47,286 bases of DNA from Gammaproteobacteria bacterium (lineage in GTDB: Bacteria; Pseudomonadota; Gammaproteobacteria; Natronospirales; REEB76): the NCBI GenBank assembly GCA_036383255.1, contig DASVOS010000009.1, positions 1-47,286 of the forward strand, read 5' to 3'. The notes beneath the pieces are model-generated. The model was not told the DNA's origin. It made no database searches and was given only the letters and a program-made list of their open reading frames with translations. Positions within the stretch are counted from its first letter, which is position 1. Each line of letters begins with the position of its first letter. This document shows positions 42,040-44,619 of the stretch, in pieces. The position numbers were made by a program, and so were the translations under genes.

Positions 42040-42078
42040 ACACATACGAGAGTTTGTCTTTCCGACAACCCGAAGCAC

Positions 42079-42099
42079 GCGGCCCCTCGTATAGGCCGC
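42079..42099 (+). promoter_or_regulatory. Putative thrS translational operator: anticodon-mimic hairpin
   Basis: A perfect 6-bp stem GCGGCC / GGCCGC (42079-42084 with 42094-42099) encloses a 9-nt loop, CCTCGTATA. Seven of these bases, CTCGTAT, read as a tRNA anticodon loop with U33, anticodon CGU and A37. CGU is a threonine anticodon. It lies at -30 to -28 from the ATG, 6 nt before the AAGGAG ribosome site. In E. coli, ThrRS binds a similar CGU-loop hairpin (-33 to -31) on its own mRNA and blocks translation. Confidence 0.7.
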
Positions 42100-42117
42100 C
42101 ACTGTAAGGAGAAGCGC

Positions 42118-44043: not shown

Positions 44044-44100
44044 ACCGCGTCCCGTATGCGTTGAGGGGACGGGTTCAGGTTTATTTTTGGAGGATCAGGT

Positions 44101-44619
44101 ATCAGCTCTGAGAAGCGCGCCCGGCGAAACGGGGAGATCACGTCGCCCAAGGTCAGGGTCATCGGCCCGGACAACCAGCAGATCGGAATCATGTTCACCC
44201 GCGAGGCCGTCCGCTACGCCGAAGAGGCGGGACTGGATCTCGTGGAGGTGTCGCCCACGGCGGAACCGCCGGTCTGCCGCGTGATGGACTTCGGCAAGTA
44301 CCTGTTCGAGGTCAACAAGAAGCAGCAGGTCGCGCGCAAGAAGCAGAAGCAGATACAGGTCAAGGAAGTGAAGTTCCGTCCGACCACGGACGAGGGCGAC
44401 TACCAGATCAAGCTGCGCAACCTGACGCGCTTCCTCACGGAAGGCGACAAGGCGAAGGTGACCCTGAGGTACCGCGGGCGCGAGCTGCTGCACCAGAACA
44501 TCGGTGTCGAGATCCTGGAGCGCATCAAGAAGGATCTGGAGGAAGTGGGGCAGATCGAGCAGTTCCCGCGCCTCGAGGGCAAGCAGATGGTGATGATCAT
44601 CGGCCCGAAGAAGAAATGA
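44101..44619 (+). CDS. infC: Translation initiation factor IF-3, AUC start
   Basis: IF-3 checks start codons and prevents subunit joining. Residues from [21 protein letters not shown] onward match the family, but a first in-frame ATG (44191) would remove 30 N-terminal residues including the [17 protein letters not shown] stretch needed for the fold. GGAGG at 44089-44093 lies 7 nt before ATC at 44101, which opens [13 protein letters not shown]. The gene therefore most likely starts at AUC, giving 172 residues. Rare infC starts (AUU in E. coli) allow IF-3 to repress itself. Confidence 0.93.

Follow-up and report, generated by a model that had tools for sequence, protein, structure and literature searches.

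The hairpin that precedes thrS in the 47,286-nucleotide stretch of gammaproteobacterial DNA analyzed here (the window) is very probably an operator to which threonyl-tRNA synthetase (ThrRS) would bind in order to repress translation of its own mRNA, as in Escherichia coli. The operator of that species is a textbook example of tRNA mimicry, and, as judged from sequence, the hairpin in the window is homologous to its domain 2. The element is of a known kind; the genome comparisons indicate that it is found in many families across the class, always with one of the four threonine anticodons on show. The features of the locus are listed in Table 1.

Table 1. Position of the thrS leader element and neighboring features in the window.
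Feature	Start	End	Strand	Basis or remarks
Probable promoter TTGCTG-N17-TATCGT	41917	41945	+	Upstream of tRNA-Val
tRNA-Val (GAC)	41963	42039	+	ARAGORN and Rfam; directly upstream of the thrS leader
Lower helix, 5' strand GCA	42075	42077	+	3 bp with 42103-42105; geometry common to E. coli and relatives
Internal loop, single 5' base	42078	42078	+	
Stem, 5' strand GCGGCC, anticodon-arm-like	42079	42084	+	Sequence; covarying stem, 99 distinct relatives
9-nt loop CCUCGUAUA	42085	42093	+	U33 42087; C34-G35-U36 42088-42090; A37 42091
Stem, 3' strand GGCCGC	42094	42099	+	Sequence; covarying stem
3' internal loop CAC (42100-42102), then UGU of lower helix (42103-42105)	42100	42105	+	
Shine-Dalgarno AAGGAG	42106	42111	+	Abuts lower helix, starts 7 nt past the stem; sequence, inference
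thrS, threonyl-tRNA synthetase, 641 aa	42118	44043	+	Presumed repressor; phmmer

The loop CCTCGTATA is enclosed by a perfect 6-bp stem (42079-42084/42094-42099), this hairpin being the local minimum-free-energy fold, and, counted from the thrS ATG (42118), its CGT (42088-42090) occupies -30 to -28. A previous, sequence-only reading of this DNA had proposed the perfect stem at 42079-42099, the U33/CGU/A37 register with CGU at -30 to -28, and a placement just before the ribosome site. Sequence and coordinates bear out all of this, with the Shine-Dalgarno (42106-42111) abutting the lower helix; that reading recognized the hairpin but overlooked what lies below its stem, an internal loop (1x3) and a lower helix of 3 bp.

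The 34 nt around the hairpin form a gapless alignment with domain 2 of the operator in E. coli, the thrS leader reading GTAT GTGATC TTTCGTGTG GGTCAC CACTGC in E. coli and GCAC GCGGCC CCTCGTATA GGCCGC CACTGT in the window, with compensated exchanges of stem pairs between them. Both have the same place in the thrS leader (with CGU at -33 to -31 in E. coli), a 6-bp stem, a 9-nt CGU loop, a 1x3 internal loop ending in CAC and a 3-bp lower helix. The resemblance to E. coli that had been noted from the near-operator position turned out to be this gapless homology, while the 9-nt loop, taken then as a departure from E. coli, is none, as the E. coli loop TTTCGTGTG also has 9 nt between Watson-Crick pairs. 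The likeness includes a full-length ThrRS with the N-terminal and anticodon-binding domains, both of which are present in the window protein: phmmer gave full-length alignments with 6vu9 and with E. coli 1qf6 (E 3e-259, residues 1-639 aligned), and its C-terminal core matches the chain of 1kog, the E. coli ThrRS-operator complex. There are also differences. The E. coli operator has a second anticodon-like arm (domain 4) that the window leader lacks, and E. coli has a long leader with no tRNA gene in the 400 nt upstream of thrS, whereas in the window only 78 nt separate the ATG from tRNA-Val (GAC), with which thrS is probably cotranscribed. In the sequence-only reading the domain-2 part of the parallel was correct, while the absent second arm and the adjacent tRNA-Val had escaped attention. 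Because the second arm, a defining feature, was looked for and is absent, we file the element as a variant of the E. coli-type operator and not as a plain member.

Folding of the whole leader was about as stable as that of shuffled sequences (z of -0.8 and +0.14 in two calculations), and with values so near zero thermodynamic folding alone is uninformative for this leader. Dinucleotide shuffling of the 78-nt leader (20,000 replicates) produced a 9-nt loop with NGU in this register on a Watson-Crick stem of 6 bp in 0.055% of cases, a frequency that makes a chance origin of the hairpin unlikely from the single sequence alone. Whether the hairpin is real or due to chance is settled by comparative evidence.

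Three covariance models were used for this comparison. The first, R1, was built from 14 sequences with NGU loops and run over whole genomes of the order, the class and the phylum. Whole-genome and locus scans gave 135 strong matches, every one directly upstream of a ThrRS gene, and in the phylum scan the 40 positives all belonged to the window's class. For further analysis 136 loci were fetched, i.e. the R1 matches plus L082, a weak match added by hand; the ThrRS reading frame starts directly downstream in all of them and the triplet has a median position of -31. R1 favors NGU loops, having been built from them, a bias eased by scores far above threshold and by a loop-masked model, R2, made as a loop-blind control. 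In the class scan R2 had matches in 34 of 369 genomes, a count not to be read as prevalence given the low sensitivity of the model in multi-genome scans, where it missed the window genome, while locally it found the window at 1e-7. Every R2 match that was re-examined at the sequence level displayed NGU and stood before thrS/ThrRS. For the third model, R3, 18 sequences were used, all from outside the window's family; over the whole 2.6-Mb genome its sole significant match was 42075-42108 (41.9 bits, E 5.1e-9), the next best having an E value of 4.4.

Loop statistics were obtained from 129 distinct leaders. All 129 have G at position 35 and U at position 36, while at position 34 C is found in 80, G in 37, U in 6 and A in 6, so that each of the four threonine anticodons is represented. 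U occupies position 33 in 114 leaders, position 37 holds A in 110 and G in 19, and the 3' internal loop is CAC in 126 leaders and CTC in the remaining three. These leaders amount to a natural mutagenesis record in which G35-U36 is kept and position 34 is exchanged among the four bases. From evolution alone, this record gives the rule by which ThrRS would be expected to recognize its target. The window genome encodes tRNA-Thr with CGU (loop UUCGUAA), GGU and UGU anticodons, according to ARAGORN run on tRNA regions, and the core UCGUA of the operator is identical to the loop core of its tRNA-Thr(CGU).

Covariation was evaluated in 99 distinct aligned matches, with an alignment that was fitted to the structure and yet is almost gap-free. 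Of the cells, 94.3% pair, and 79 changed on both sides, compared to a mean of 29 after shuffling, with none of 500 shuffles reaching as high a value; sliding the partners destroyed pairing. The outermost pair of the lower helix appears as AU, UA, CG, GC, GU or UG, but is unpaired in 44/96 cells and constitutes the weakest part of the structural model. The element is present in 10/10 members of the window's family with a readable leader, seven of them (window included) with CGU and three (G007, G008 and G011) with GGU; G004 and G005 have the compensated stem GCGACC/GGTCGC and G007 a single A-C mismatch. Two checks had been proposed with the sequence-only reading. Covariation of the stem was found in the double changes just described, and the expected invariance holds for G-U in all 129 leaders but not for CGU to the letter, given the three GGU loops. 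Under the refuting condition proposed with that reading, a loop CGU that close relatives do not conserve, these three loops would literally count against it. The exchange of CGU for GGU in close relatives nevertheless strengthens the reading of the loop as a putative anticodon mimic, since the change is to another threonine anticodon.

In E. coli, ThrRS binds the anticodon-like arms, and its N-terminal domain, on whose deletion control is abolished, clashes with the 30S subunit; tRNA-Thr competes for the enzyme, and changing the operator anticodon to that of methionine moves control to MetRS (PMC7373986, PMC11088916, PMC9976931). Since that mechanism is established, the window encodes a full-length ThrRS and the element abuts the Shine-Dalgarno, we consider self-repression to be very likely here too. 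When in excess over tRNA-Thr, free enzyme would dock its anticodon-binding domain on the NGU loop and overhang the adjacent Shine-Dalgarno, stopping 30S loading and repressing its own translation, and rising tRNA-Thr would compete it off the operator. Against this stand the absence of the second arm, contributory in E. coli, and the leader folding energy, no better than shuffled. In the lineage of the window the operator is of the one-arm type, and its mRNA 5' end probably derives from 3' maturation of tRNA-Val.

The missing arm might mean that the hairpin is a relic and that this lineage no longer represses thrS strongly. The 35 nt that separate the element from tRNA-Val, a poorly conserved and only partly U-rich segment (in E. 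coli, domain 3 is a single-stranded linker for ribosome loading), showed no second anticodon-like arm equivalent to domain 4; this gap spans 10-47 nt in relatives, leaving no room for such an arm in the window's lineage, and several lineages have lost the element altogether. We nevertheless regard the relic as improbable, as the window's family strictly preserves the stem, the loop and the internal loop, down to a compensated pair and the CGU/GGU exchange, and the one-arm form recurs in many families. The single-arm form is a test of whether one arm suffices for control.

Leaders with more than one arm do exist. An upstream second arm of the NGU type was present in 21 leaders, compared to 1-11 for the other 15 dinucleotides, with L078, L207, L217 and L200/L202 as convincing cases and seemingly three arms in L082. 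Tandem threonine anticodon-like arms, two or three in number (L078, L082, L207, L217, L200, L202 and L270), are a natural counterpart of the two-arm E. coli operator and sometimes differ in anticodon, L078 combining GGU and AGU. In one family (L227-L239) a hairpin CCTGCC-(ACTGTGA or GCTGTAA)-GGCAGG, with a UGU loop, is located upstream of the operator at about -95 and is likely the equivalent of domain 4.

The tRNA-Val gene, whose 3' end (42039) is 35 nt before the lower helix, offers a different explanation, namely that the hairpin serves RNA processing or stability or is a tRNA-trailer structure, with CGU being incidental. A tRNA-Val is indeed upstream in 78/136 loci, but in the other 58, with no tRNA found within 420 nt, the leader keeps the hairpin at the same distance from thrS; moreover, G35-U36 is invariant while N34 varies, and in L086 tRNA-Val has a terminator of its own and the operator follows as a separate element. 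We find this explanation very improbable. Judged from sequence, the probable promoter upstream of tRNA-Val probably also drives thrS, since the gap contains no terminator; TTGC and the TATCGT-like box hold their position in ten out of ten family loci, the relatives within the order having TTGACA...TAAAAT. The mRNA would then probably owe its 5' end to 3' maturation of the tRNA-Val transcribed with it, a linkage that raises a possible coupling of tRNA maturation to thrS expression.

That the hairpin is an intrinsic terminator or a transcription attenuator is scarcely credible, short, GC-rich and perfect as it is and with a real terminator at that spot in Betaproteobacteria, because it is followed by CACTGTAAGGAG and not by a U tract, lies immediately ahead of the Shine-Dalgarno with a loop conservation unexpected for a terminator, and Rfam finds neither a T-box nor an attenuator. 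Overall, Rfam 15 returned no relevant family in the window or the E. coli leader at gathering or permissive thresholds. A T-box leader was considered and discarded, as the specifier loop and antiterminator had no Rfam match in either leader. T-boxes have in common with the element the tRNA-responsive control of aminoacyl-tRNA synthetase genes, but they show a codon and bind tRNA directly, whereas the window loop shows an anticodon, so that a protein is the expected ligand. In yeast, synthetases such as AspRS and HisRS likewise recognize anticodon mimics within the mRNAs that encode them (PMC6542539), although these are different enzymes and eukaryotic mRNAs, and no homology of sequence or structure is claimed.

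The extent of the operator within the class was evaluated in a sample of around one genome per family, in which 130 genomes had ThrRS. The full element adjoins thrS in 46 of them, by comparison of coordinates with the R1 scan. Reading of 60 leaders with no full match, done partly by eye, revealed about nine with a hairpin-only version that has NGU and no CAC; one of these, L270, has two arms. Operators of this hairpin-only kind, lacking the CAC internal loop (L263, L266, L271, L277, L289, L291, L311 and L317), often abut the Shine-Dalgarno directly. Betaproteobacterial thrS loci, retrieved by protein similarity, gave no match to the element; in many of them (L033-L111) tRNA-Val is kept before thrS and followed by an intrinsic terminator, with no operator. 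The sampled betaproteobacterial relatives, whose lineage has the ThrRS most similar in sequence to that of the window, have lost the element.

In the openly available literature that we searched, the element was described for E. coli only, and its conservation in near relatives of E. coli may well have been reported elsewhere. Taking these data together, we lean towards a broader view in which the thrS operator would be an RNA family of ancient origin, spread across the class and missing from Rfam, its basic form being a single anticodon-mimic arm by the ribosome site in which all four threonine anticodons have been exchanged. Second and third arms would have been added in some lineages, as in E. 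coli, while in that of the window the operator would have become fused behind tRNA-Val, with tRNA 3' maturation setting the mRNA 5' end.

A further observation concerns infC, the next gene after thrS. At its start region (44089-44103), none of the usual start codons ATG, GTG and TTG is found close to the Shine-Dalgarno GGAGGA. A rare start codon in infC (AUU in E. coli) is tied to self-control by IF3. In the window, AUC (44101) is the probable start of the IF3 reading frame, which fits this habit.
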